IMG/VR virus record: IMGVR_UViG_3300011114_001087
Location: 1 to 38,290 of that record
Strand: one strand, 5' to 3'
DNA length: 38,290 nt
DNA from: a virus
This document shows positions 3,504 to 16,968 of the stretch, in pieces. The position numbers and the translations under genes are program-made. Numbering within the stretch: position 1 is the first letter of the stretch; every line of letters begins with the position of its first letter. Below the pieces are notes generated by a model that saw only the letters and a program-made list of their open reading frames with translations, did no database searches and was not told the DNA's origin.

Positions 3504-3635
3504 ATGAAACACACCACTGATTATCAAATTCAGCAAAACTTGACCAACCATCGCCGGATGCAATTATTCAAACAGCTGATTGCTCTCGCACTCGCTGAGA
3601 CTGTCGCCTTCACCACCATCTCCTTCTTACTATGA
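3504..3635 (+). CDS. Small hypothetical protein (43 aa), coupled to the next gene
   Basis: This 43-residue frame begins MKHTTDYQIQQNLTNHRR and ends in a hydrophobic stretch (LIALALAETVAFTTISFLL), possibly a single membrane segment. It starts eight bases after the DUF2786 gene. Its stop overlaps the start of the next gene as ATGA (3632-3635), the arrangement seen at many real junctions in this genome. That coupling is the main evidence. It could be a tiny membrane protein or only a translated leader that feeds ribosomes to the glycosyltransferase gene. Confidence 0.5.
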   Translation: MKHTTDYQIQQNLTNHRRMQLFKQLIALALAETVAFTTISFLL

Positions 3636-4489
3636 ACTACAAAACAACTGTCGTCACTCCGTGGCACAATCCCATTCAATTCAAACTCTTCACCGATGCA
3701 TGGAACATCGGTCATCCCTGTCCAAACTTCCTGCCAGTCCACGATGCTCACCGGATGGGGTGTGCACAAACCAAGAATCGTGGCATTGAGCTTGCCATCA
3801 AGCAGGGTGCCGACATCGTCATCATCCTCGACGATGACTGTCTGCCGACCGAAGAAATGTTGGTTCAGCTGCACGCCAACGAAACACCTCCTCTGCAGGC
3901 ATTCATCGATGCGCACGTGGCCTCGCTCACCACACCCTTGGCCATTCCGCTGTTTGCCCAAGTCACACAACCACGCTCCCGTGGCACACCCTATGAGCAA
4001 TTGTCCATTGACCTTGCACCTGCAGCCTCCATGGGCTATTGGGAGGACATTGGCGACTACGATGCTTGTTGCCAGCTTGTGCACGGAGCACACATGCCAA
4101 TGATGTTTCAGCGCGGTGGCATCTACAATCAATACTTTGCCATGAGCGGGATGAACATTGCCTTCTGGGCAACGGACTGGCCATGGTTCAAGTTTGTGGA
4201 TGTGCCGCGCTTCGACGATATCTGGATGGGATTCCTTTTCCAGAAGTATGCCTATCACCGTCGGAAGTGCATCAGCCTGAATGGCCCAAGTGTCTCCCAC
4301 TCGCGCCAAAGCAATGTCTGGAACAACTTGAAGTTGGAGGCTGAGCACCTTGAGGACAACGAGACATTTTGGCAAAATGTCTTCCATTTCTGTCCAGAAA
4401 AGGGAGTCCTCAGTCGGGAAGTCCTCCTCACATTCCTCGCGGAAGTTTCTGACAGTAAAATCAAACCAATAATTATTGACCTACTATGA
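3632..4489 (+). CDS. Glycosyltransferase resembling reversibly glycosylated polypeptides (GT75-like)
   Basis: A GT-A-fold signature is visible. NRGIELAIKQGADIVIILDDDCLP (motif given for orientation) places the acidic metal/nucleotide-sugar site at D67-D69. RFDDIWMG at 193-200 is followed by HSRQSNVWNNLKLEAEH at about 223-239. The combination DDxWxG, then HS(K/R)-S-N and N-L-K is typical of plant RGP/UDP-arabinopyranose mutase (GT75) proteins, which bind UDP-sugars. The plant proteins are about 360 residues and this one is 285, so it is shorter. A role in modifying a phage or host glycan is inference. The start overlaps the upstream stop (ATGA). Confidence 0.7.
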   Translation: MNYKTTVVTPWHNPIQFKLFTDAWNIGHPCPNFLPVHDAHRMGCAQTKNRGIELAIKQGADIVIILDDDCLPTEEMLVQLHANETPPLQAFIDAHVASLTTPLAIPLFAQVTQPRSRGTPYEQLSIDLAPAASMGYWEDIGDYDACCQLVHGAHMPMMFQRGGIYNQYFAMSGMNIAFWATDWPWFKFVDVPRFDDIWMGFLFQKYAYHRRKCISLNGPSVSHSRQSNVWNNLKLEAEHLEDNETFWQNVFHFCPEKGVLSREVLLTFLAEVSDSKIKPIIIDLL

Positions 4490-4872: not shown

Positions 4873-5663
4873 GCACCACACCGAGAACCGAACGTGTCTG
4901 GAACCACGCGATGGATAACTATCCCGCGAAACTACCCGAAGGAATTGCTAATTTCGCACGCATCCTTGAACGCGAACTTACCGCCGTCACCGCAGAACGG
5001 GATAGGTTGCTGTCCGAGATTGCGGACGAGCGCGCCAAAAAGTCAGATGCGCTGATTGCAGCGGTCGAAGATTTAGTCCGGCTCGATACCGAACTCGCCG
5101 ACATGACCGCCGAGCGGGACGTGCTTCAACAGAATTATACTGCGCTTTGGAACGGTAGCGTCCACAACGCGCTTCGTTCTGAAAAAGCAAAGGCAGAATC
5201 CGAGCGGGACAAGGCAAAAGAGCTTCTCGTATTCGTGGAAAGGTGGGCAAACCATCACGGGCAAAAAGATTTCATGTCCGCCGAGCAGACGCTTTCGATA
5301 ATTCAACACCACCCCGACATCGAGGCAATCACCGAGTCCTACGCAGACGGCAAGATTCCAGAGACGCCGAATCCGTGGAAGGAACTCACCGCCATGACCG
5401 CCGAGCGGGACGCGCTAAAAGAGGAAGTGATAGACTGGCGGCAGGGCAGTGATGCAGAAGCACACGCACACGACGAGGCTCGCGCCAAACTTGCCGCCAT
5501 GACCGCCGAGCGGGATGCGCTGTGCGAACAACTCCGAGCCATACAGGAAGAGGCCAAGATTGCCTTCAGCCACACGACAAACCCCATTGTGACTGATATG
5601 ACCCTTTCCATCGGCAAGCATTGTGTGGATGCACTTGAGGGAGACGACAGGCCTTCTCAATAA
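4869..5663 (+). CDS. Coiled-coil protein with repeated TAERD motifs (264 aa)
   Basis: The frame is open from 4800. The GTG at 4869 is preferred because it makes a GTGA overlap with the previous stop, as at 12308. The protein is a long heptad-type coiled coil with four copies of a TAERD-x-L motif. Three of these are encoded by nearly identical 18-bp DNA at 5103-5120, 5394-5411 and 5499-5516. Phage proteins with repeated 'LTAERDxL' segments are common in early regions and are usually annotated Ea22-like or hypothetical. The stop overlaps the opposing primase gene by 7 bp. Function unknown; a structural or scaffold-like role is a guess. Confidence 0.7.
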   Translation: MSTTPRTERVWNHAMDNYPAKLPEGIANFARILERELTAVTAERDRLLSEIADERAKKSDALIAAVEDLVRLDTELADMTAERDVLQQNYTALWNGSVHNALRSEKAKAESERDKAKELLVFVERWANHHGQKDFMSAEQTLSIIQHHPDIEAITESYADGKIPETPNPWKELTAMTAERDALKEEVIDWRQGSDAEAHAHDEARAKLAAMTAERDALCEQLRAIQEEAKIAFSHTTNPIVTDMTLSIGKHCVDALEGDDRPSQ

Positions 5664-7858
5664 GGTCGCGCCTCGGCAATTGGATTGTTCTCAACTCTCC
5701 CTCCAGGGACAGCACTCGCTGACCACTTCTCATACTCATGGACGAGCGTTTCCTTCTCTGCACTCGCCCACACTTCGTGGCGACGCACACTCCACGCTCT
5801 AATCTGGCTTCCACTGCTCAGCCTGACTTGACCCAGCTGCCTGCACCCAGACCCGTGCAATGCACGTCCTAGGCTCTGCAGCGAGGTGTTATGGCGAAGG
5901 TTCGCAGGCAGAACATCCATCAGGTGACTCGTGCTCACGAGATCCGATGAGAATGGCCACAGTTCATTCTCAATGCAGTCCAGCACCCATGCCACCAATG
6001 GTGGCGAGGACATGGCAATGACCTCCTTTTTGCCATGGGTCATGGGTGCGTGGCCAAGGTGCTTGAACTTGCTCAGATCTCTGTCGAGCATGAACTGCCA
6101 GATGCACCCAATGTTCTCCCGAGACCAGTTCCACAGCTTCTCGTAGTAGCCACCCTCCTTCACAGCTGCTGGCGAAAAGATTATGCAGTAGCGACGATCA
6201 CTTTTGTCAATCAGGATGGCATCCTCGTGGTTGGTGAACATGAGGATGTTGAACACATTGGCCTGCTCATAGGCTGGCTTGTGCATTTCGCGCACTGTCG
6301 TCGTGCTCTCCGTTATCATCGGCTTGAGCTTGTTCATCAACTCCAGTCGGCCACGTGCCATGACCTCCTCAATGATGACAAGCTGAGCCTTCTTTTGCCA
6401 TGCAGTGTAAACCTCGTGCACAGCCTCATTCGTCGGTGTGCTCACGTTGTGTGCTCCGAGGATCGCTCTCATGATCCAGCCAATGTAGCTCTTCCCTGTG
6501 CCTTGCAAGCCTTGGAGCATCAGTGCCCACAGAATCTTCTTGCCAGGATTCTGAATATTGAAGGCGAGCCAGTCCAGCATCACACCACGCTCTGCCTCGT
6601 CTGGGATCATATACTCGCAGTGAGACAGGAACTTATCCACGGCACCCGCCTTGGGGACAAGGTCGGTGTTGGGACGCCACAGATTGAAATACTTCTTGTC
6701 ACCCTCGGAGAAAATAATCTCCCGAGCAGGAGTGTAGGTTGGCAGATCAACCTTCTGGAATGCAGGATTGCTCAGAGCGCGCAGGGCTGGGTCGCCCTTT
6801 ATCTCGTGGCAGTAGCGGTCGCGGAACTGCTCCTTGTCAATTTCAATCAGCGTCTTCGTGTGGACGAATCGCTTTGTGCCCACCACATACACCCAGTCCT
6901 CAGGAAGCTCTGCTGTCAGCATTTCCTTGATGAACTTGTCAGCCTCGTCCACTGGCATCTGGCGAATGGCATCCGTCTTCCCTGCCACGAGCACATCGTC
7001 AATGCCTTTGCCTGCATCGGCTGGCCAGTCCTCAATCGCCACCTTGACACCTGCCTCTTTCAGTGCACTGTAAAGACTCGCCAGTGCCTTCCCCACCACA
7101 AAGTCCTCGGCACTCGGAGCAGTGGACCATGCACTCTCCTCACTTTCCTTCTTCCTCCCTCCATAGGCCTGTGCCTGACCACCCTCAACATCCGCGATGG
7201 CCTTTCCCTTGTCACTGTCAAAAGCCAACAGCACCATCTCAGGCTTCAGCCTCTTCACGATTTCGACGGCCATGCGCCACATTGCCACTCCTGGGATACT
7301 CAAAGTGGTGATATTCGTAAAAGTGGTCGCGATGTCCGCCTTTATTTCACCTTCAGTTATCCGCAACACACCATTGCCACCTGCACCGCGCTCCCGTGGC
7401 CAGTGGACAGCAGCCACTGCCGAGGTGCCATTCGGATGCTTGACTTCGCCAGTCTTTTTATCTGGCTGGGGATTTGAAGAGATGAGAAGATACTTGCTGC
7501 TCGGCGAACTTGGCTTGTCCACGCGACATTTGAGAGCCACAATGTTGCCTCCCTCATCACGCACAGGGATCAGGATGCCACTCTTCCCTGCCAACTCCCA
7601 ACTCCCTTTTTCATTGCGCCAGAATCCTGCAACACCCGACAGATCCTCATCGAACTTCTTTGCAAGCTGCTCTGCGATGTGCGAGCGTTTGAGAGGCAAT
7701 GACCGATAGCCATTCTGTTGGATGTCCTCGGTGGAAAATCCTCGTGCACCCAGTTGCTCCTTGTGTTCAGGAGTGAGGTCGAGGATTTCTAGAAGCGAGG
7801 AATAAACTTCATTTGACTTGGAGGTGGAAGATTTTTTGGAAGCACTTTTTGAATTCAT
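5657..7858 (-). CDS. DUF3854-type primase with C-terminal superfamily 3-like helicase
   Basis: This is probably the phage replicative primase/helicase. Residues about 20-300 look like a DUF3854/TOPRIM-like region: ILIPVRDEGGNIVALKCRVDKP at 95-116, ITEGEIKAD at 167-175 (acidic E169/E171), and LLAFDSDKG at 210-218. Residues about 400-600 are a D5/NrS-1-type ATPase with Walker A GLQGTGKS (450-457), an acidic Walker B VIIEE (494-498) and sensor-like FTNHED (541-546). No separate zinc finger is obvious. At 733 residues it is a typical length for fused phage primase-helicases. It is inverted relative to the flanking early genes and ends 7 bp inside the upstream convergent gene. Confidence 0.85.
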   Translation of the reverse strand: MNSKSASKKSSTSKSNEVYSSLLEILDLTPEHKEQLGARGFSTEDIQQNGYRSLPLKRSHIAEQLAKKFDEDLSGVAGFWRNEKGSWELAGKSGILIPVRDEGGNIVALKCRVDKPSSPSSKYLLISSNPQPDKKTGEVKHPNGTSAVAAVHWPRERGAGGNGVLRITEGEIKADIATTFTNITTLSIPGVAMWRMAVEIVKRLKPEMVLLAFDSDKGKAIADVEGGQAQAYGGRKKESEESAWSTAPSAEDFVVGKALASLYSALKEAGVKVAIEDWPADAGKGIDDVLVAGKTDAIRQMPVDEADKFIKEMLTAELPEDWVYVVGTKRFVHTKTLIEIDKEQFRDRYCHEIKGDPALRALSNPAFQKVDLPTYTPAREIIFSEGDKKYFNLWRPNTDLVPKAGAVDKFLSHCEYMIPDEAERGVMLDWLAFNIQNPGKKILWALMLQGLQGTGKSYIGWIMRAILGAHNVSTPTNEAVHEVYTAWQKKAQLVIIEEVMARGRLELMNKLKPMITESTTTVREMHKPAYEQANVFNILMFTNHEDAILIDKSDRRYCIIFSPAAVKEGGYYEKLWNWSRENIGCIWQFMLDRDLSKFKHLGHAPMTHGKKEVIAMSSPPLVAWVLDCIENELWPFSSDLVSTSHLMDVLPANLRHNTSLQSLGRALHGSGCRQLGQVRLSSGSQIRAWSVRRHEVWASAEKETLVHEYEKWSASAVPGGRVENNPIAEARPY

Positions 7859-7981
7859 AGAAGACGAAGCGTGCCTTCTTGTGCATTGAGAAAAAAGATT
7901 TTTCAGTTGAAAATTTCTTTTTATTCTTCTTGTCTTTCATTTTACTTCCGACGAAAGTGCAAGTCGCAAAGACAAAAAGCC
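7859..7981. promoter_or_regulatory. Divergent intergenic region between primase-helicase and the replication operon
   Basis: The 123 AT-rich bases between two divergent genes must carry promoters for both directions. On the + strand, TTGAAAAT at about 7908 resembles the TTGAAAAT beginning of the element at 16974. GTGCAAG, also found in that element, occurs near 7965 before the leader CAAAGACAAAAAGCC and the ATG. I cannot place -10 boxes. A short Lys/Phe-rich frame on the minus strand is low complexity and I do not call it. Confidence 0.5.
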
Positions 7982-8356
7982 ATGACACAAAAACAATCCG
8001 TAGTTTACGTAATTCAGCAACCAAAGCCCAAAGAGGGTGGATGGACTCCGAACTTGCAGCCAGCAGTCGAGTATGGCCGTATTGAGTTTGTGTTCGATGC
8101 TGGTGACCGAATTTATGCCGATCCAAAAGCGGCACTCGAAAAGGCTCGCACGCGCTTGAAGGACTTTGATCCGGAGAGTGATTACTTGCTGTGGCCGAAC
8201 TTCGGCGACCCAGCGAGCCAATGGCTCGTGGTCGCCCATCTCACTGCCAATGGCTTCAACACTCTTCGCTGGCTCTACTGGACACGCGGTCGCGTAGGCA
8301 ATGCCATGAGCAACGAAAATGGTTTCTACATTCCAATTATCCTCAAAGCAAAATGA
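7982..8356 (+). CDS. Hypothetical protein (124 aa)
   Basis: I see no recognisable family. The protein is a compact alpha/beta sequence (GRIEFVFDAGDRIYADPKAALEKARTRL, then YLLWPNFGDPASQWLVVAHL, then GFNTLRWLYWTRG). It is rich in Trp and Tyr, with no membrane segment. The ATG at 7982 is chosen over the longer open frame because it follows AGACAAAAAGCC, the same leader used before the ThyX-like gene. Its stop overlaps the next start as ATGA. Being first in the replication operon it may be a DNA-replication accessory protein (inference). Confidence 0.65.
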   Translation: MTQKQSVVYVIQQPKPKEGGWTPNLQPAVEYGRIEFVFDAGDRIYADPKAALEKARTRLKDFDPESDYLLWPNFGDPASQWLVVAHLTANGFNTLRWLYWTRGRVGNAMSNENGFYIPIILKAK

Positions 8357-8964
8357 ACACATCCATCGACATCGAGGCTGATGCCTCTTCCCAAGCTACA
8401 ACGTCACCTGCCGATTTGAAGCAGGTCTCTGAACTCTGCGAGCGAGCCTTGCTCCTCGAAGCTCGCATCGCTGAGCAGGAGGAACTCCTCAAGGAATTGA
8501 AAGAGCAGCAAACCACAATCATCACCCAGTCCATCCCTGAAGCAATGGACTCGTTCGGGCTCAAGAACTTCGTCCTGAGCAATGGAGCCTCGGTCACAGT
8601 CAAGCCCATCATCGTCGCCAGCATCCCCAGTGAGAGTGCTATCATGAAGGCCAAGGACGAGTTGCTCCGTGACACAATGCGTGCTCGGCTGGGCAAGGCT
8701 TTGAGTGAACTTGAAGCTGCTGGTGCTGGTGCACTTATCAAGAGCGAGTTGTCCGTCCTGCTCGGCAAAGGACAGGAGCAGAAACTTCAGCATGTTGCCA
8801 CCCTGCTCAAGAGCCTCGGACTCGAGCCTGACATCAGCAAGACAGTAAACTCAAACTCTTTATCCTCGTGGGCACGTGAGCGGATCGCTGCCGGACTCCC
8901 AGTGGACTATGAAACTTTTGGCATCTACGATGGTCGCAAGGCCATCATAAAACCTGCCAAATAA
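8353..8964 (+). CDS. Phage replication-region protein (203 aa), family uncertain
   Basis: The N-terminal third is a coiled coil (LCERALLLEARIAEQEELLKEL, about 28-49). It is followed by SIPEAMDSFGLKNFVLSNGASVTVKPI, then a helical middle, and it ends in SSWARERIAAGLPVDYETFGIYDGRKA. This layout is found in a widespread family of small phage proteins next to ssDNA-binding proteins in replication regions. I recall it as a DUF family but cannot name it firmly. The ATG at 8353 overlaps the previous stop (ATGA). The nearby SSB-like gene supports a DNA-metabolism role. Confidence 0.65.
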   Translation: MNTSIDIEADASSQATTSPADLKQVSELCERALLLEARIAEQEELLKELKEQQTTIITQSIPEAMDSFGLKNFVLSNGASVTVKPIIVASIPSESAIMKAKDELLRDTMRARLGKALSELEAAGAGALIKSELSVLLGKGQEQKLQHVATLLKSLGLEPDISKTVNSNSLSSWARERIAAGLPVDYETFGIYDGRKAIIKPAK

Positions 8965-8989
8965 CAAAACAACAACACACCAAATAACA

Positions 8990-9793
8990 ATGAGCACTAA
9001 ACTCGCAAAACAACAAACGAAAACCCTCGCAACCGCGCCAACCCTCGACCTCGAAGCCGACTCCAAACTCGGACAAGAGCAGATGTCCCAGAAGGACTTC
9101 GCCATACCAAATCTTACCATCCTTCAGGATTTGTCGCCACAGACCAAGAAACAGCGTCCTGAGTTCATCAAGGGTGCCGAGGTCGGACAGATCTGCGACC
9201 CTGTCGCTGGAGAAATCTTCGACGGCGAAAAAGGCATCATCATCATCCCTGTCCACTATCGGCGTGCCCACATTGAGTGGAAGCCCAATCGCGGTGGCTT
9301 CGTGAAGGATCATGGCCTTGACGAAACGATGCTGAATCGCTGCGTCCGCACCGACGATGGCAAGAATGTGCTTCCTGGAGGCAACATCATCAACACCACT
9401 GCCGAGTATTTCGTGCTGATGGTGAAGGAAGATGGCACAACGTCACCCTACGTTCTGCGCATGAGCGGAAGCCAACTGAAGAAGTCCCGTCGCTGGAACA
9501 CGATGATTAACCAACTGCGTGTGCCCTCGAAAGATGGTGGCACCTTCAATCCTGCCATGTTCTATCGCACCTACTTGCTCGCCTCAGTTCCAGAGTCGAA
9601 CGACAAGGGAAGCTGGATGGGCTGGAAGATCTCGGCAGACAAGAATGTTCTGGAGCTCGAAGGTGGTGCCAACATCTATGTGGCAGCGCGTGAGTTCCAC
9701 AAGCAGATCAAGGACGGTCTCGTCGTGGCTCAAGCTCCGACGGATCATGACGGTGGCACTGCAACTCCCGAGGACGACTCTGCAGCAATGTAA
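8990..9793 (+). CDS. Putative single-stranded-DNA-binding-like protein (267 aa)
   Basis: The body is beta-rich (GIIIIPVHYRRAHIEWKP, then AEYFVLMVKEDGTTSPYVLRMSGSQLKKSRRW) and it ends in an acidic tail (ATPEDDSAAM) like that of many SSB proteins. Similar phage proteins of 200-300 residues with the PNLTILQDLSP start and an acidic tail lie in replication modules and are often annotated as SSB or hypothetical. I assign it by this pattern and by its neighbours, not by a diagnostic motif. The leader is CACACCAAATAACA before ATG. A strong hairpin follows the stop. Confidence 0.55.
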   Translation: MSTKLAKQQTKTLATAPTLDLEADSKLGQEQMSQKDFAIPNLTILQDLSPQTKKQRPEFIKGAEVGQICDPVAGEIFDGEKGIIIIPVHYRRAHIEWKPNRGGFVKDHGLDETMLNRCVRTDDGKNVLPGGNIINTTAEYFVLMVKEDGTTSPYVLRMSGSQLKKSRRWNTMINQLRVPSKDGGTFNPAMFYRTYLLASVPESNDKGSWMGWKISADKNVLELEGGANIYVAAREFHKQIKDGLVVAQAPTDHDGGTATPEDDSAAM

Positions 9794-9895: not shown

Positions 9896-10855
9896 ATGAA
9901 AATCAATATCATCGGAGCAGGCATGGCTGGCCTCTTGGCAGCGAACATCCTGCGTCGTCACAATCCCACTGTCATTGAGGCGAAGGACTCGCTTCCCGAC
10001 AATCACTCGGCGGTGCTCCGCTTCCGCAACACCTCCATCAGCGACGCCACTGGCATCCCTTTCAAGAAGGTGCTCGTGCGGAAGGCCATCTGGGACGGCA
10101 ACCAGATTGTCAACCAGTGCGATGTGCGCCTTGCCAATCTTTATTCGGCCAAGGTCACTAAGGACATTGGCAGTCGCAGCATATGGAACCTTGAGCCTGA
10201 GCACCGCTGGATCGCTCCTCGGGACTTCATCACCCAGATGGCCAACTCAGTGGACATCCGCTTTGGACAGAAGGCTTCGCTCTTCGAAAAGACAAGCGAC
10301 CAACTGACCATCAGCACCATGCCAATGCCCACCCTCATGACGGCACTCGGCAACTCGTGCATTCCGGAGTTTCCTGTTCAACCAATCAGCACCCTCCGCG
10401 CTCGCATAACCAATCCAAAGATCTCTGTCCACCAGACGGTTTACAATCCTGCTCCCTACTCAAACTCGGACATGGATTTCTGGTATCGGGCGACGATCCA
10501 TGGCGACGAGGTCATCATTGAAAGTGTCACAGGAGGATGGCTGTCGGACGAAGTGATGGAAAAGACAGCCATCCATGAAATCCTCAGCCGTGTCTTCGGC
10601 ATTCAATGCGATCCCACCGACATCCATGATGTGCGCGCTGCCAAGCAACCCTATGGGAAAATCTTCCCCATTGACGAGCGGTTGCGCCAGCAGTTCATCG
10701 TATGGGCGAGCGACACCTTCAACATCTTCTCGTTGGGACGCTTTGCCACTTGGCGACCACTCCTGCTCGACGATCTTGTGTCCGATGTCAAGGTCATTGA
10801 AAATCTCATCCTCAATCCAAGCAAATACGGACAGAAACTCTCAACAACCAAATAA
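9896..10855 (+). CDS. FAD-dependent oxidoreductase-like protein (319 aa)
   Basis: The N-terminus INIIGAGMAGLLAANIL has the dinucleotide-binding GxGxxG motif (G7, G9, G12) and an acidic residue ending the second strand (VIEAK, E28), typical of FAD-binding Rossmann proteins. The middle includes FWYRATIHGDEVIIESVTGG and the C-terminal part FNIFSLGRFATWRP resembles the second FAD contact (G-R-F-A-T-W). It is shorter than most members, so the substrate domain is minimal. It stands immediately before the ThyX-like gene, so a shared role in pyrimidine or DNA-base chemistry is plausible but unproven. It could instead be a cofactor oxidase of unknown substrate. Confidence 0.75.
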   Translation: MKINIIGAGMAGLLAANILRRHNPTVIEAKDSLPDNHSAVLRFRNTSISDATGIPFKKVLVRKAIWDGNQIVNQCDVRLANLYSAKVTKDIGSRSIWNLEPEHRWIAPRDFITQMANSVDIRFGQKASLFEKTSDQLTISTMPMPTLMTALGNSCIPEFPVQPISTLRARITNPKISVHQTVYNPAPYSNSDMDFWYRATIHGDEVIIESVTGGWLSDEVMEKTAIHEILSRVFGIQCDPTDIHDVRAAKQPYGKIFPIDERLRQQFIVWASDTFNIFSLGRFATWRPLLLDDLVSDVKVIENLILNPSKYGQKLSTTK

Positions 10856-10867
10856 CCACAAAAAGCC

Positions 10868-11623
10868 ATGAAAGTCGAACTCATCAGCTACACCGGACAA
10901 TACGCTCCGAATCCATCCCAGCAGGCAGCAACCCTGCTCATCTTCATCAAGAACACTCGGCTCGAGATGAACAGCAACACACTGGCGGACATCGCAGGAT
11001 GGCCACAGCACACGCGCGATGCCGAACTCACCTACATTGCCAACACCCTACGCTCGTCGTGGGAGTTCATTGACTACACCTTCTGTATCACAGGAGTGAC
11101 CCGTGCCTTCACCCATCAGTTCGTCCGCACGCGCACTGGCAGCTACGCCCAGCAAACGCACCGGACACTGAATGTGGAGGGATTCACTGCCGAAACTCCT
11201 GAGACAATCGGCGACGATCCTGCTCGTATGGCTGCATGGGAAGAGACCATGGACAAGATTCGCGAAAACTACAAGACCCTGATTGACCTAGGAGTGCCCA
11301 CGCAGGACGCTCGTGGGATTCTGCCGACTAATGTCCACACGAACATTGTGGCGAAGTTCAATCTGCGCACACTGGCAGATCTCGTGGGCAAGCGGGAAAA
11401 TCTCCGCGCCCAAGGCGAGTATCAGAAGGTCGCCCGCGCAATGGCACTGGAGGCTTTGAATGTGCACCCTTGGCTCCGACCTTTTCTCTATCCAGAGCGG
11501 AAGGCCACGCCGCAACTTGACAAGATGCTCAAGGAGGCCATCGGCGAAGCCACTCCTGCCAGTCTGCCAGTCATCAATCTGGCACTGAAGGAATTGGACA
11601 AACTCAAATCAACTTGGGGTTAA
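10868..11623 (+). CDS. thyX: ThyX-like flavin-dependent thymidylate synthase with altered signature motif
   Basis: Family features are clear. THQFVRTRTGSYAQQTHRT at 82-100 occupies the ThyX signature, and DARGILPTNVHTNIVAKFN corresponds to the conserved 'ARxxLPxxxxT...N' helix, followed by LRTLADLVGKR. Classical ThyX has RHRxxSxNExSxR. Here the positions read R87-T-R89-T-G-S92-Y-A-Q-Q-T97-H-R99, so the His, Asn, Glu and Ser of the motif are replaced by Thr, Ala, Gln and Thr. The two flanking Arg and the first Ser remain. It should act on dUMP or a related nucleotide with FAD. A shifted reaction such as dUMP hydroxymethylation is possible. Length (251 aa) is normal. Confidence 0.85.
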   Translation: MKVELISYTGQYAPNPSQQAATLLIFIKNTRLEMNSNTLADIAGWPQHTRDAELTYIANTLRSSWEFIDYTFCITGVTRAFTHQFVRTRTGSYAQQTHRTLNVEGFTAETPETIGDDPARMAAWEETMDKIRENYKTLIDLGVPTQDARGILPTNVHTNIVAKFNLRTLADLVGKRENLRAQGEYQKVARAMALEALNVHPWLRPFLYPERKATPQLDKMLKEAIGEATPASLPVINLALKELDKLKSTWG

Positions 11624-11627
11624 GAAT

Positions 11628-12311
11628 ATGAAATTACAAACCGACATCCGCAAACTACTCGAGCGTGTTGACAAGGGCAAGGACTTCATTGGCTTTGATC
11701 TTGACGGTGTGTTGGCCATGGACACTCGTGGCACCTATCCGGAAATTGGCGAGCCAAACCCTTACTGGGTCACCCTCTTCTGCCAGTTGAAAGAAGAAGG
11801 CTACGACTGTCGCATCTTCACTGCACGTGTGTCAGGAAGTCAATTCGCCCAAGAGGGGAAGATTATTGAATGGGCAGGAAAGAATGGCCTCGGAAAGCTG
11901 CAGCCCAAATGGGACATCCTCAGCGAGAAGTTTCCTGCCATGGCACTCTACTTCGACGACCGCGCTGTGGGAGTTGTCACCAACACCTGCTACACGCACA
12001 TTGTGCCTGATATGGAACCTGTCACAAACTCCTCACCCTCGCTCACTGTGCCAGAAATCCTCGAGAAAGCTGCTGAGACCTATCGCCAGAGGAATGCTAT
12101 CTATGGCGACAACTACAAGGAGCACGGGCGACTCATGGCTGCGCTGTTCCCGAATGGCCTGACGCTGAAGACCGAGGAGGACTGGATTCGTTTCGGTGTC
12201 CTTCACATGTGCATCCACAAGGTGGGACGCTACTGCAATGCCAATGGCCACAAGGATTCTGCCCACGACCTGAGTGTCTATGCAGCCATGCTTGAGGAGG
12301 TGACGAAGTGA
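11628..12311 (+). CDS. HAD-like hydrolase fused to a DUF6378 (MazG-like) domain
   Basis: Two domains are visible. Residues 1-125 are a small HAD-type phosphatase: motif I FDLDGVLA (D24, D26), motif II IFTARVSG (T65), a Lys-containing stretch, and motif IV ALYFDDRAV (D110/D111). Residues about 142-227 match DUF6378: ILEKAAETYRQRNAIYG, DNYKEHGRLMAAL, then IRFGVLHMCIHKVGRY and KDSAHDLSVYAAML, an all-alpha domain with acidic/His residues like nucleotide pyrophosphohydrolases. The fusion suggests cleanup of nucleotides (a pyrophosphohydrolase plus a monophosphatase). It sits directly after the ThyX-like gene, four bases away, and overlaps the next gene as GTGA. Confidence 0.8.
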   Translation: MKLQTDIRKLLERVDKGKDFIGFDLDGVLAMDTRGTYPEIGEPNPYWVTLFCQLKEEGYDCRIFTARVSGSQFAQEGKIIEWAGKNGLGKLQPKWDILSEKFPAMALYFDDRAVGVVTNTCYTHIVPDMEPVTNSSPSLTVPEILEKAAETYRQRNAIYGDNYKEHGRLMAALFPNGLTLKTEEDWIRFGVLHMCIHKVGRYCNANGHKDSAHDLSVYAAMLEEVTK

Positions 12312-12781
12312 TAACCATCGTCAAGAGCAGAATCTGGGTCGCTGCCGATGGCAAGTGGAAGCTTGCCAAGAAGCGGCATCCGAAGAAGACTGAGTGTGTC
12401 ATTCGCTTCTGCACGCGCCCTCCTGCCACTTACTGGAAGAAGGGTGTGCTCAAGCATGAGTCGAAGTGCCAGCATTGTAAGTCTCGCGAATGGCGTGCCA
12501 ACAACCCAGTGCTCAATGCTCTCAAGTGCATCAAGAGTCGTGCCAAGCGCACTGGCATTCCTTTTTTCTTGACAAAGGAGCAGTTCATCGCCTTCTGCAA
12601 GGAGACAGGCTTCGTTGAGAAGCGTGGTCGTGCATCGGGTGCTCTGCACATTGACCGAATTGATCCAGCGAAAGGCTATGAAGTGGGCAACATTCAAGTG
12701 CTCACTGCATCGGAGAATGTCAGGAAGCGACATGCAGATGCCAACCTCGAAGAACTCCCAGACGACAACGAACCATTCTAA
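12308..12781 (+). CDS. HNH-like endonuclease or zinc-binding phage protein (157 aa)
   Basis: Residues near the C-terminus read GALHIDRIDPAKGYEVGNIQVLT, a typical ending of phage HNH-like proteins (H-I-D-R-I-D, G-Y, N-I-Q-V, then a helix with N). A CQHCKS pair lies upstream at about residues 57-62. The first His of a full HNH motif is not obvious, so catalytic activity is uncertain. Such proteins are often free-standing homing-type or DNA-processing nucleases. The GTG start overlaps the previous stop (GTGA at 12308-12311). It may be part of the operon or an inserted nuclease gene. Confidence 0.7.
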   Translation: MITIVKSRIWVAADGKWKLAKKRHPKKTECVIRFCTRPPATYWKKGVLKHESKCQHCKSREWRANNPVLNALKCIKSRAKRTGIPFFLTKEQFIAFCKETGFVEKRGRASGALHIDRIDPAKGYEVGNIQVLTASENVRKRHADANLEELPDDNEPF

Positions 12782-12787
12782 AATACC

Positions 12788-13342
12788 ATGATCCTATTTG
12801 ACACCGAAACCACAGGCCTTGTTGGTCCTGAGATAATGCCAATTGCCAAGCAACCCTTCATCATCGAGTTCTGTGCCGTGAAACTCGACAACAAGACCTT
12901 GAAGGAAACTGAGTGCATCAATTTCCTCGTGAACAGTGCAGGTCGCCCTGTCATCTCCGAGGAGATTACCAAGATCACTGGTATCACCGAGGCAATGCTC
13001 GTGGGACAGCCAACCTTCGAGCAACACCTTCCTGCCATCACCGAGTTGTTCCTCGGCGAAACAATCCTCGTCGCCCACAATTGCAAGTTTGACGTGGACA
13101 TGCTCAGGCTGGACTTGACCCGCTGTGGACGATTGACTCGCTTCCCTTGGCCACCACGACATGTGTGCACAGTTGAAGCCAGCACCCACATTATGCGTCG
13201 CCGTATGAGGTTGAATGAACTTTATGAACATGCCACTGGCGGTGGACAAATTCAGGACGCTCATCGTGCCATCAACGATGTTCGTGCTCTGGCAGAATGT
13301 GTCCGCTGGCTGAGCAAGGAAGGAAAGGTCAAATTCTCATGA
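12788..13342 (+). CDS. DnaQ-like 3'-5' exonuclease (epsilon-type proofreader)
   Basis: All five DEDDh residues are present: D5 and E7 in LFDTETTGL, D102 in VAHNCKFDVDML, and H159 and D164 in DAHRAINDV. At 184 residues it is essentially only the exonuclease domain. The family removes mispaired 3' nucleotides and acts with C-family DNA polymerase. Here its stop overlaps the start of the polymerase gene as ATGA (13339-13342), which strongly suggests a polymerase-proofreader partnership. Confidence 0.9.
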   Translation: MILFDTETTGLVGPEIMPIAKQPFIIEFCAVKLDNKTLKETECINFLVNSAGRPVISEEITKITGITEAMLVGQPTFEQHLPAITELFLGETILVAHNCKFDVDMLRLDLTRCGRLTRFPWPPRHVCTVEASTHIMRRRMRLNELYEHATGGGQIQDAHRAINDVRALAECVRWLSKEGKVKFS

Positions 13343-16300
13343 ACCTTCGCCTAAGAACTGAGCACAGCTTTGGCTACGCCATCGGCAAGGTGGACAAGGT
13401 CTTGTCGGCAACTTCAACTCCATGGGCTGGCATTGCCGACCGCCACGGGACATGGGGACATATACGGTGGATGCGCGCTTGCAAGGCTGCAGGCAGGAAG
13501 CCAATCTTCGGAGTTGAGCTTGCTGTGGTTCATGACATGGAGTTGCGCGAAAAACAGCAGGTGAACTACATGTCCTTCATTGCCCGAAATGATGCAGGCT
13601 TGCGCGAGGTGTATGAATTGACCACACTGGCCACAAGCAAGTTCTACTATCACCCGCGCCTTGACTATGGACATCTGGCTGAGGTGAGCGATAATGTCAT
13701 CGTTCTGTCGGGTGCCCATCCGGACTTTGAGCGACTGCCCATGAAGCCGAACATCTTCGTTGAGTTGAACCAGCTTTCGTCTCCGGACATTGTGCAGGCG
13801 ACAAGCCTCGGCAAACTCGTGGCCACTGGCGACAACCTTTATCCTCGGCCAAGTGACAAGGGAGCCTATGACATAATTGTGGGCAAGGATCGCCAGATGC
13901 GCACCGCCTCTGCCCATATCATCAGCGAGCACGAGTGGCTGGAAAGCTGGCCTGAGCACCGACAGGCCATCGCTCTAGGAGCCTCGCTAGCCTCCGAATG
14001 CACTGCAGCCCTACCCAAAGCCCAACTTCTTCATCCCGACATGAAGGTGACACTGCAGGACATGTGCATTGCAGGAGCAAAGAGCAGGAAGGTCAACTTG
14101 GACAACAAGGTCTATGGGGACAGGCTGGATCGCGAACTGAAGTTAATCGAAGACAAGGAGTTTGAGGACTACTTTTTTATTGTAGCAGATTTGGTCAACT
14201 GGGCTAAGCAGCGCATGCTCGTGGGACCAGCACGTGGCTCCAGCTGTGGATCGCTCGTGTGCTATTTGATAGGAATCACCGACATTGATCCGATTCCCTA
14301 CGACCTGTTGTTCGAGCGATTCATTGACATCAACCGGAAAGACCTTCCGGACATTGACATTGACTTCCAAGACGACCGCCGCGAATTGGCCTTCGACTAC
14401 CTGAAGGAAAAGTATGGCCACGAGAATGTGGCTCGCCTCGGCACCATCAATGTGTTCAAGGCCAAGAGTGCCCTAGGCGACTGTGCCAAGGAACTGGGCA
14501 TTCCCCAGTGGGAGGTGGCTGACTTGAAGGACTCGATCATCGAGCGAAGCACTGGCGACTCCCGTGCAGCCTTCTGCATTCTGGACACCTTTGAGCAACT
14601 GGAAATTGGCCGCTCGACGCTTCAAAAGTATCCGGAGCTGGCAGTGTCTGCCGAACTTGAAGGGTGTGCCCGCCACACAGGCATGCACGCTGCAGGCATC
14701 ATCATCACAGCCAATCCCATTACCAATTACTGCTCTGTGAATGAGCACACACAGACGGCCATGATTGACAAGTATGATGCCGAGGACTTGAACCTTCTGA
14801 AGATTGATGCACTAGGCCTGCGCACTCTCAGCGTTCTGCAGGACACCCTCGACCAGATAGGTAGGTCGCGTGAGTGGCTTCGGGATCTTCCCACGGACAA
14901 TGCCGAGGCTTTTGAGACACTGAACAAGTGTCACTTCGCTGGCATCTTCCAGTTTGAGGGATATGCACTCCAAAGCATCGTCAAGCAAATGCACATTGAC
15001 AACTTTGAGGACATTGTCAGCATCACCGCGCTTGCTCGTCCTGGGCCACTCAACTCCGGTGGGACGACCGAGTTTCTCAAGCGACGGACTGGCGAAAGCG
15101 AAACTGTCTATCTTCATCCTCTTGCCGAGGACATCACCAAGATCACCTTTGGCGTTATTGTTTATCAGGAGCAGGTCATGCAAATTGCCCGCATCGTTGG
15201 GTCGCTGTCGTGGGAGGATGTCAGCAGTTTGCGCAAGGCGATGAGCAAGTCGTTGGGGAAGGAGTTCTTTGATCGCTACTTCGAGAAGTTTGCCAAGGGG
15301 ACAGATGAAAAAGGCATCCCACGCGAGCAGGCTCAAGCGATCTGGGACAAGATCAATACGATGGGATCGTGGGCGTTTAATAGATGCTTATCAGGAGATA
15401 CGATGATTCGGTTGTCAACTTCTGGCAGCAATCTTCCCACCGAGATAAGCATCGCTGAACTTTACGACAGATATGTTGCCAATCCATCCTCATGGATAAA
15501 GCAGCGGAAGAAAAAAGGATTCTGTGCACCTCTCATCACCTTTGATGGCGAGCGAGGAGTGCCGATGAGTTGTGTCACGATCCACAGGAATGGGATAAAG
15601 AAGGTGAATCGCTATTTGTTTGACGATGGCACATTTGTGGATTGCACAAAGGATCACAAATTCCTTATCAATGGCCAGTGGACTCAAGCCTCCTGTGCGA
15701 AGGTCGGGGACAGATTTCGCGCGCTGACTTCCGACGAGCAACCGAAAGACCCAAAGATGGCAGTTGCAAAGGACTCCGACAAAGGGAAGTCAGCACGAGG
15801 GAGAAAATATGGCAAGACACAGGAAGGCTTTCCAACTGGCAAGGACAATCCTGCATGGAAGAATGGCCTGAGTGTGGCATTCCGGAAGTTCAAACTCGCC
15901 AACAAGGGAAAGCCTTGCCAAGTCTGTGGGAGGAAAACTGGACGAATGGAAGTCCATCACAAGGATGAATCCTCTGGCAATATAAATCCAGAAGACCTTC
16001 AATGGCTCTGTGTCAGTTGCCATAAAAAGGAACACTACATGCTCGGCAGAACTCGTCGCTGGAAGAAGGGATACAAGCCCACAGATAAAGTCCTTGTGTC
16101 AGTAACGCCAATCGGCGACAGGGAAACCTACGACATTGAGATGCCAGATCCTCATCACAACTTCATGCTCGCCAATGGACTAATAACCCACAACAGCCAT
16201 GCAGTTGCCTATGGACTCATGAGCTACTGGTGCTCCTTCATGAAAGCCCATCACCCTCTGGAGTTTGCTGCCAGCTGCCTGCGCAATGCCAAGGACGACG

Positions 16301-16968
16301 ACCAGAGCATCAAAATCCTGCGCGAACTTGTGAATGAAGGCTACCATTACAAGCCTCTCGACAAGGACAAATCGGTGGCCAACTGGAGTGTGCAAGATGG
16401 CACCCTCGTCGGTGGTCGTACTGCCATCAAAGGAGTTGGCACCAAGCTTGCCGAAACAATCCTGCGGAAGCGAACCGAAGGAAAGCCATTCACTGAGCGT
16501 GAGCGGAAATTATTGACCGAAGGCACAACCCCATGGGACAAGGTGTTTGAGGCTTCAGAGCGATGGGGACACATCATCCGCAATCCGGAAAAGTTCAACA
16601 TCCTCACACCACTCACCTTGCTCAAGGACATCACCCAGCACAGCGACGGGACATTTGTCTTCATTGCCAAGATAACCGAGAAGAATCTTCGCGATCACAA
16701 CGAACTTCAGAACCTTGTCAAGCGCGGTGGAAAGCGAATGGAGGGACAATCGCTCTTCCTCAACTTGACGCTGGAGGATGACACCGATTCGATGATGGCG
16801 AGTGTGAATCGCTTTGACTATTTGAAGTGGGGAGTGCCGCTGATTGAGTCTGGGAAAATCGGCGACTGGTATATTTGGAAGGGCGTGAACAATCCTGGCT
16901 TTCGAAAAATACGAATTTCAAGGTGGCGGAAACTCACTGGCAATGAGGAGTTTACGAGAAAAGATTGA
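13339..16968 (+). CDS. dnaE: C-family DNA polymerase (DnaE-like alpha subunit) with in-frame intein
   Basis: The start is the ATG at 13339, overlapping the exonuclease stop. The precursor is 1209 residues; without the intein (codons 683-952) it is 939, shorter than bacterial DnaE. A PHP-like N-terminus is visible (RTEHSFGYA and IADRHGTWG, with the second motif divergent). Palm residues are D338, D340 and D342 in PDIDIDF and D490 in LLKIDALGLRTL. GPARGSSCGSLVCYLIGITDIDP precedes the first aspartates. After the intein come the SHAVAYGLMSYW helix and a helix-hairpin-helix-like RTAIKGVGTKLAETI. It replicates phage DNA, likely with the upstream exonuclease. I see no clamp gene. Confidence 0.92.
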   Translation: MNLRLRTEHSFGYAIGKVDKVLSATSTPWAGIADRHGTWGHIRWMRACKAAGRKPIFGVELAVVHDMELREKQQVNYMSFIARNDAGLREVYELTTLATSKFYYHPRLDYGHLAEVSDNVIVLSGAHPDFERLPMKPNIFVELNQLSSPDIVQATSLGKLVATGDNLYPRPSDKGAYDIIVGKDRQMRTASAHIISEHEWLESWPEHRQAIALGASLASECTAALPKAQLLHPDMKVTLQDMCIAGAKSRKVNLDNKVYGDRLDRELKLIEDKEFEDYFFIVADLVNWAKQRMLVGPARGSSCGSLVCYLIGITDIDPIPYDLLFERFIDINRKDLPDIDIDFQDDRRELAFDYLKEKYGHENVARLGTINVFKAKSALGDCAKELGIPQWEVADLKDSIIERSTGDSRAAFCILDTFEQLEIGRSTLQKYPELAVSAELEGCARHTGMHAAGIIITANPITNYCSVNEHTQTAMIDKYDAEDLNLLKIDALGLRTLSVLQDTLDQIGRSREWLRDLPTDNAEAFETLNKCHFAGIFQFEGYALQSIVKQMHIDNFEDIVSITALARPGPLNSGGTTEFLKRRTGESETVYLHPLAEDITKITFGVIVYQEQVMQIARIVGSLSWEDVSSLRKAMSKSLGKEFFDRYFEKFAKGTDEKGIPREQAQAIWDKINTMGSWAFNRCLSGDTMIRLSTSGSNLPTEISIAELYDRYVANPSSWIKQRKKKGFCAPLITFDGERGVPMSCVTIHRNGIKKVNRYLFDDGTFVDCTKDHKFLINGQWTQASCAKVGDRFRALTSDEQPKDPKMAVAKDSDKGKSARGRKYGKTQEGFPTGKDNPAWKNGLSVAFRKFKLANKGKPCQVCGRKTGRMEVHHKDESSGNINPEDLQWLCVSCHKKEHYMLGRTRRWKKGYKPTDKVLVSVTPIGDRETYDIEMPDPHHNFMLANGLITHNSHAVAYGLMSYWCSFMKAHHPLEFAASCLRNAKDDDQSIKILRELVNEGYHYKPLDKDKSVANWSVQDGTLVGGRTAIKGVGTKLAETILRKRTEGKPFTERERKLLTEGTTPWDKVFEASERWGHIIRNPEKFNILTPLTLLKDITQHSDGTFVFIAKITEKNLRDHNELQNLVKRGGKRMEGQSLFLNLTLEDDTDSMMASVNRFDYLKWGVPLIESGKIGDWYIWKGVNNPGFRKIRISRWRKLTGNEEFTRKD
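15385..16194 (+). other. HNH-containing intein inside the DNA polymerase
   Basis: The insert is 270 codons, from Cys1 (CLSGDTMIRL) to the terminal His-Asn (GLITHN), followed by Ser+1 of the extein. The B-block TKDHKFLI and F-block YDIEMPDPHHNFML are recognisable, as in Hint-domain inteins. Between them lies an HNH endonuclease domain: CQVCG, VHHKDES, NINPEDLQWLCVSCHKKEH. The insertion falls inside the conserved FN(K/R)SHAxAY motif, four residues after the position of the cyanobacterial split DnaE intein (Y/CFNK). Splicing should restore FNRSHAVAY. The linker region is Lys-rich and AT-biased relative to the host gene. Confidence 0.92.

Follow-up and report, generated by a model that had tools for sequence, protein, structure and literature searches.

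The window, that is, the whole 38,290-nucleotide stretch of viral DNA that we analysed (IMG/VR record IMGVR_UViG_3300011114_001087), contains three adjacent plus-strand genes that encode a small FAD protein, a ThyX-like protein and a fusion of a HAD domain to DUF6378. The gaps measure only 12 bp between FAD and ThyX and 4 bp between ThyX and the fusion, consistent with the short spacing and shared strand described in a first-pass annotation of this DNA, which read the three genes as a possible base-modification cluster. The features considered here are as follows.

3632-4489, plus strand: GT-A-like glycosyltransferase, a candidate decorating enzyme only (Pfam RGP, E = 3e-7, above cut-off)
9896-10855, plus strand: FAD-binding oxidoreductase-like protein, 319 aa, phrog_4828, predicted UDP-galactopyranose-mutase-like fold; obligate partner of variant ThyX
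10868-11623, plus strand: ThyX-fold protein, 251 aa; dUMP-binding residues kept, His53/His79/Tyr91 changed to Phe/Thr/Thr
11628-12311, plus strand: HAD-DUF6378 fusion, HAD domain first
11628-12011, plus strand: HAD phosphatase domain (fusion residues 1-128) with motifs FDLDGVL, FTAR and YFDDR; phrog_1238/phrog_415; weak fold match to T4 PNKP phosphatase
12054-12311, plus strand: DUF6378 domain (fusion residues 143-227), Pfam PF19905 above cut-off, four helices predicted
12308-12781, plus strand: HNH/endonuclease VII-like ORF (phrog_3322, phrog_1035), which fills a variable slot in the window
12788-13342, plus strand: DnaQ-type 3'-5' exonuclease (Pfam RNase_T), a conserved module neighbour
13297-16968, plus strand: DNA polymerase III alpha (DnaE) with an intein-like HNH insertion, a conserved neighbour identified by profile matches

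The first-pass annotation saw no glycosyltransferase immediately beside the cluster, and indeed the GT-A-like gene, which it did not mention, lies 5.4 kb upstream. This gene encodes a DDD motif, and only two relatives were found, one from IMG/VR and the other from a phage record of 595 kb; we rejected it as part of the module, as its one related viral locus lacks the module. Just upstream of the module, positions 7871-9793 hold three homologues of the cyanophage Pam3 gp32, gp33 and gp34 families, and genes of the gp33 and gp34 types recur upstream of the FAD–ThyX module in many loci. A primase/helicase-like gene (DUF3854, DUF5906) occupies positions 5657-7858 on the minus strand. The intein-like insertion in DnaE runs from 'NRCLSGDTMIRL' to 'LANGLITHNSH', with a Pfam HNH match at residues 874-913.

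Features of the three module proteins

The window ThyX matches Pfam Thy1 (E = 1e-31) and passes the cut-off of the NCBIfam thyX equivalog model. Its motif RTRTGSYAQQTHRT, in place of RHRX7S.RY, has the form RTRX7T and lacks His79. An unusual motif had been noted previously, but the protein departs further from ThyX than that description suggested: Phe and Thr take the place of His53 and Tyr91, respectively (T. maritima numbering). Alignment of 68 non-redundant variant-ThyX members to solved ThyX, in the same numbering, showed that Gln75, Arg78, Arg80 and Arg90 of the dUMP site are kept in all 68, and the downstream arginines of this site are kept as well. By contrast, His53 was lost in every member (Phe or Met throughout), as was Tyr91 (never aromatic), and His79 was replaced in 61 of the 68. 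The Ser88 position holds Ser, Thr or Ala. Strict conservation of Ser88 and Tyr91 in ThyX has been reported, and the Y91A mutation slows methylene transfer by the T. maritima enzyme more than 100-fold (PMC8316439). In a control set of 80 viral loci with canonical ThyX, which come from other phage lineages so that lineage is a possible confounder, His53, His79 and Tyr or Phe91 were each present in 79.

The FAD protein matches phrog_4828 (E = 2e-67), a family without an assigned function; its only Pfam match was NAD_binding_8, below the cut-off of that model. Its AlphaFold model is confident (pLDDT 93.8). The best Foldseek matches were UDP-galactopyranose mutases (UGMs; E = 7e-11, TM-score 0.67 by query length), followed by renalase and amine-oxidase-type flavoproteins. 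The motifs YFPx5YRA and IYSxGRFxxWR are common to the FAD protein and eukaryotic UGM, and R198, which is invariant in 84 FAD-protein sequences, corresponds to the YRA arginine (Arg327 of A. fumigatus UGM by index). Overall sequence similarity to UGM was not significant (best UGM E = 0.22). In UGM, N5 of the reduced FAD acts as a nucleophile, and in ThyX the flavin N5 carries the methylene. Because both enzymes use the flavin N5, it is plausible, by analogy, that the FAD protein may run a flavin-adduct reaction on a nucleotide.

Among the matches listed for the HAD half of the fusion, most were HAD phosphatases, and the closest, though weak, was the T4 PNKP phosphatase (best E only 0.037); a relative matches Pfam HAD_PNKP. 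The domain shares its fold and motifs with T4 polynucleotide kinase/phosphatase, but the window fusion has no kinase domain and its HAD is joined to DUF6378. The first-pass description of a HAD domain fused to a MazG-like DUF6378 was borne out for the HAD motifs and for DUF6378. The MazG-like label was not confirmed: DUF6378 is predicted as four helices, and no MazG-like or all-alpha NTP pyrophosphohydrolase fold was among the PDB matches listed. DUF6378 is possibly an NTP pyrophosphohydrolase, and the lack of a tie to that fold counts against the base-modification reading.

Linkage of the FAD gene to variant ThyX

By tblastn, 359 of 50,697 phage records contain the FAD gene, and ThyX counts per host equal the FAD counts (Pseudomonas 291, Escherichia 27, Serratia 9 and Xanthomonas 6). 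PB1, Kyle, XcP1, a Vibrio phage and a Cronobacter phage all have FAD, ThyX, a HAD-type gene, an exonuclease gene and DnaE in this order, with a few additional genes interposed. In IMG/VR, where loci were seeded separately on ThyX and on FAD, both genes were present in 77 of 80 ThyX-seeded and 73 of 79 FAD-seeded viral loci. Wherever both were found, FAD lay upstream of ThyX on the same strand, and the distance was 150 bp or less in 100 of 157 loci. Two of the three ThyX-seeded loci without FAD are contig ends, and, more generally, loci without the partner gene were contigs that stop near its expected position. The exception is L100, in which the 4 kb that precede ThyX hold no FAD gene; in L098 and L101, which are closely related to L100, the FAD gene lies 3.2 and 4.6 kb upstream.

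According to the first-pass annotation, a FAD enzyme not linked to ThyX in other genomes would speak against its reading. We found the opposite, a near-obligate linkage in approximately 157 viral loci, together with the agreement of host counts across the 359 records. Neither the FAD gene nor the actinophage partner described below occurred in any of the 80 canonical-ThyX loci. The FAD–ThyX linkage is far above chance, and both it and the change in the ThyX active site are firmly established.

Actinophages with an altered ThyX, such as Troll4 and Neptune, carry a divergent partner family, phrog_8720. This family was present in 120 records, and its counts in Mycobacterium (26) and Microbacterium (36) phages equal those of ThyX. 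At one such locus (L171:569-1375), the gene annotated as 'oxidoreductase' is a phrog_8720 member; its product is related to the FAD protein but divergent from it, and the gene accompanies an altered ThyX. The gene table of Gordonia phage Xenia2 places an oxidoreductase, a phosphatase, a methyltransferase, a FabG-like reductase, a MazG-like protein and ThyX in one region, and these genes have overlapping cluster distributions (PMC11385102). Xenia2 is related to the altered-ThyX actinophages, and the phrog_8720 partner is listed in this region.

Other genes of the locus are also conserved: among 94 non-redundant loci, FAD was present in 88, HAD/DUF6378 in 82, ThyX in 79, DnaE in 77 and DnaQ in 70. 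The FAD gene and ThyX could therefore be passengers of one conserved replication block that do not work together, given that DnaE and DnaQ are likewise conserved neighbours and that the correlation of FAD and ThyX distances (0.59) is not above that of FAD and DnaE (0.76). However, the pair is kept together in very different phages, the divergent partner recurs with altered ThyX in actinophages, and the FAD gene of the pair is missing from all 80 canonical-ThyX loci, all of which makes this explanation highly improbable.

Two scans of bacterial contigs, in which the short peptide patterns used limit sensitivity, returned no bacterial homologues of the FAD protein. The thyX neighbours of the spindle viruses STSV1 and ATSV were considered as FAD proteins and rejected, as they are not FAD proteins. 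We found no description of the FAD–variant ThyX pair in the literature searched, and its novelty is relative to that literature.

Exchangeable neighbours and restriction phenotypes

HAD and DUF6378 were fused in 12 loci and encoded by separate genes in 36. The families that occupy the variable slot were counted in 76 loci with enough sequence: SDR in 29, a glyoxalase-like VOC protein in 26 (25 of them together with SDR), methyltransferase in 9, carbamoyltransferase in 6 and a GT-like protein in 5. At least one slot enzyme was present in 46 of the 76 loci, and co-occurrence was rare except for SDR with VOC. The other 30 loci, including the window, have no slot enzyme nearby, which counts against the base-modification reading. 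The SDR, VOC, methyltransferase, carbamoyltransferase, GT and DUF6378 families were each found in 0 of the 80 canonical-ThyX loci, and HAD in 1. Hydroxyl groups are a common target of methyltransferases, carbamoyltransferases, glycosyltransferases and dehydrogenases alike, and we therefore propose that the core product may be hydroxylated. In marine loci, a gene matching Pfam Pyr_excise (pyrimidine-dimer DNA glycosylase-like) recurs between ThyX and HAD (L158:4273-4776 and similar loci).

The UGM-like fold suggests another role, in which the FAD protein would act on a nucleotide-sugar as UGM does and provide a sugar donor for base decoration, with ThyX making either the acceptor or plain dTMP. 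The best fold matches, the two shared motifs and the equivalence of the YRA arginine to the invariant R198 are all consistent with such a role. Nevertheless, the sequence match is not significant, the UGM Pfam domain is missing, and the FAD gene is always beside ThyX rather than GT genes and is equally frequent in phages without a slot glycosyltransferase. We consider this role improbable.

Published phenotypes of phages that carry the module bear on the base-modification reading. Nearly all of the restriction systems tested fail against Wifcevirus phages, with no known mechanism to account for it, but EcoP1_I is still effective against them (PMC11990801), and this sensitivity counts against base modification. 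The Wifcevirus Bas98 has all of FAD, variant ThyX, HAD/DUF6378, SDR and VOC. In the Pbunavirus group, DNA of AA20 resists 10 of 16 enzymes and that of AC20 resists 7, whereas MspI, HpaII and HindIII cut both (PMC11945000). The FAD and ThyX genes are intact in each of the two genomes, and the ThyX has the RTR motif. By our site counts, AA20 lacks sites only for SmaI and XhoI, and AC20 for BamHI, KpnI, SmaI and XhoI; taking the digestion outcomes as that paper states them, at least eight enzymes for AA20 and at least three for AC20 have sites yet fail to cut, several of them with few sites. Cleavage by HindIII, the site of which has two T residues per strand, counts against base modification, as does the near absence of several sites, such as SmaI and XhoI, from PB1 and AA20, a scarcity that is also seen in unprotected phages. 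DNA of the Pbunavirus JG024 is cut by SacII, the site of which contains no T (PMC3008698), and full replacement by 5-hydroxymethyluracil blocks only approximately 8% of enzymes, EcoRI included (PMC7653180). In the Pbunavirus records of AA20 (L385 and L386) and PB1 (L167 and L168), SmaI, XhoI, BamHI and KpnI sites are almost absent, and EcoRI sites are about three times as frequent as expected.

We also compared palindrome avoidance in 80 variant-ThyX, 55 canonical-ThyX and 47 T7-like loci. The variant-ThyX set was not distinct from the canonical-ThyX set (80 versus 55 loci), a negative outcome that counts against the base-modification reading. A comparison of 7 genomes with 3 controls had been suggestive of T protection, but given the result with the larger sets we did not use this measure. 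No nucleoside analysis of a carrier phage was found in the literature searched, which is a further point against that reading.

A proposed route to a modified pyrimidine and its relation to known systems

The original suggestion of a base-modification cluster gains indirect support from the changed ThyX active site, the hydroxyl-type slot enzymes and the published restriction resistance of carriers, although its MazG-like component was not confirmed. We also count for this reading the linkage, the absence of the FAD gene from the 80 canonical-ThyX loci, the pairing of phrog_8720 with altered ThyX and the absence of a ThyA-type enzyme (PF00303) from 10 carrier genomes or records. Base modification is the best single reading of these data, and we judge it somewhat likely that a C5-modified pyrimidine deoxynucleotide is made, instead of or besides dTMP, by a route with the FAD protein and variant ThyX at its core. 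In such a route, variant ThyX would bind dUMP and flavin and transfer a one-carbon unit but, with His53, Tyr91 and usually His79 replaced, would leave the canonical reaction unfinished, and the UGM-like flavoprotein would complete or redirect it. The simplest product would be 5-hydroxymethyl-dUMP. The HAD phosphatase and DUF6378 may remove canonical dTMP or dTTP, and the neighbouring DnaE may incorporate the modified nucleotide, which would place the modified base in virion DNA. In many phages, the hydroxyl could then be decorated by the exchangeable SDR and its glyoxalase-like partner, a methyltransferase, a carbamoyltransferase or a glycosyltransferase.

The main rival, which we regard as rather unlikely, is a two-flavoprotein thymidylate synthase. 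Here, variant ThyX would make ordinary dTMP and the FAD protein would be a dedicated reductase or hydride donor that offsets the lost residues; HAD and DUF6378 would serve general nucleotide clean-up, and the slot genes would be unrelated accessories. Obligate pairing is equally expected in this case, and a source of dTMP would be useful to carriers because they lack a ThyA-type enzyme. The ThyX also passes the equivalog cut-off with its dUMP site kept, and fungal UGM structures with NADPH bound are among the fold matches of the FAD protein (5vwt). What a dTMP-producing system leaves unaccounted for is the restriction resistance of carriers and the SDR, VOC, carbamoyltransferase, methyltransferase, GT and DUF6378 genes beside variant but not canonical ThyX.

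More broadly, we tentatively propose, as possible rather than probable, that the ThyX fold has been put to a new use in phages: together with a UGM-like flavoprotein, it would serve for flavin-dependent hydroxymethylation of pyrimidines or for some other one-carbon modification at C5. This pair would be the core of a modular base-modification system with exchangeable decorators in Pbunavirus, Wifcevirus, actinophages (with the divergent partner) and many uncultivated phages, and would explain the restriction resistance of Wifcevirus. If so, a modified pyrimidine would be present in hundreds of sequenced phages, P. aeruginosa therapy phages and the BASEL isolates of Wifcevirus among them; the so far unexplained resistance of Wifcevirus could be examined through two genes; two flavoenzymes, probably with unusual chemistry at flavin N5, would be new; and many phage genes annotated as 'thymidylate synthase' would be misnamed. 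If ordinary dTMP is the product, the dependence of ThyX on a second flavoprotein would still define a new kind of thymidylate synthase. In either case, the carriers are many unrelated phages, including Pseudomonas phages widely used in therapy.

We compared the module with its closest known systems. With canonical ThyX (T. maritima and M. tuberculosis), the variant shares the fold family, as judged by profile, and the dUMP-site residues, but it has lost His53, Tyr91 and usually His79, is always accompanied by a second flavoprotein and has additional neighbours. The FAD protein shares with UGM, renalase and amine oxidases its predicted fold, a GxGxxG FAD motif and the YFPx5YRA and IYSxGRFxxWR motifs; unlike UGM, it has only 319 residues and no UGM Pfam domain, and its gene accompanies ThyX, not sugar genes. 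In the 20 kb searched of the phage M6 modification region, no homologue of the FAD protein was found. Thymidine hypermodification in SPO1, ViI, M6 and phiW-14 starts from 5-hydroxymethyl-dUMP, and the known pathways use a ThyA-type hydroxymethylase. In common with these pathways, the module has a pyrimidine-nucleotide synthase homologue beside a DNA polymerase, a phosphatase and decorating enzymes, but here ThyX and the FAD protein stand in place of a ThyA-type gene. To our knowledge, no known pathway makes a modified pyrimidine by such a route.
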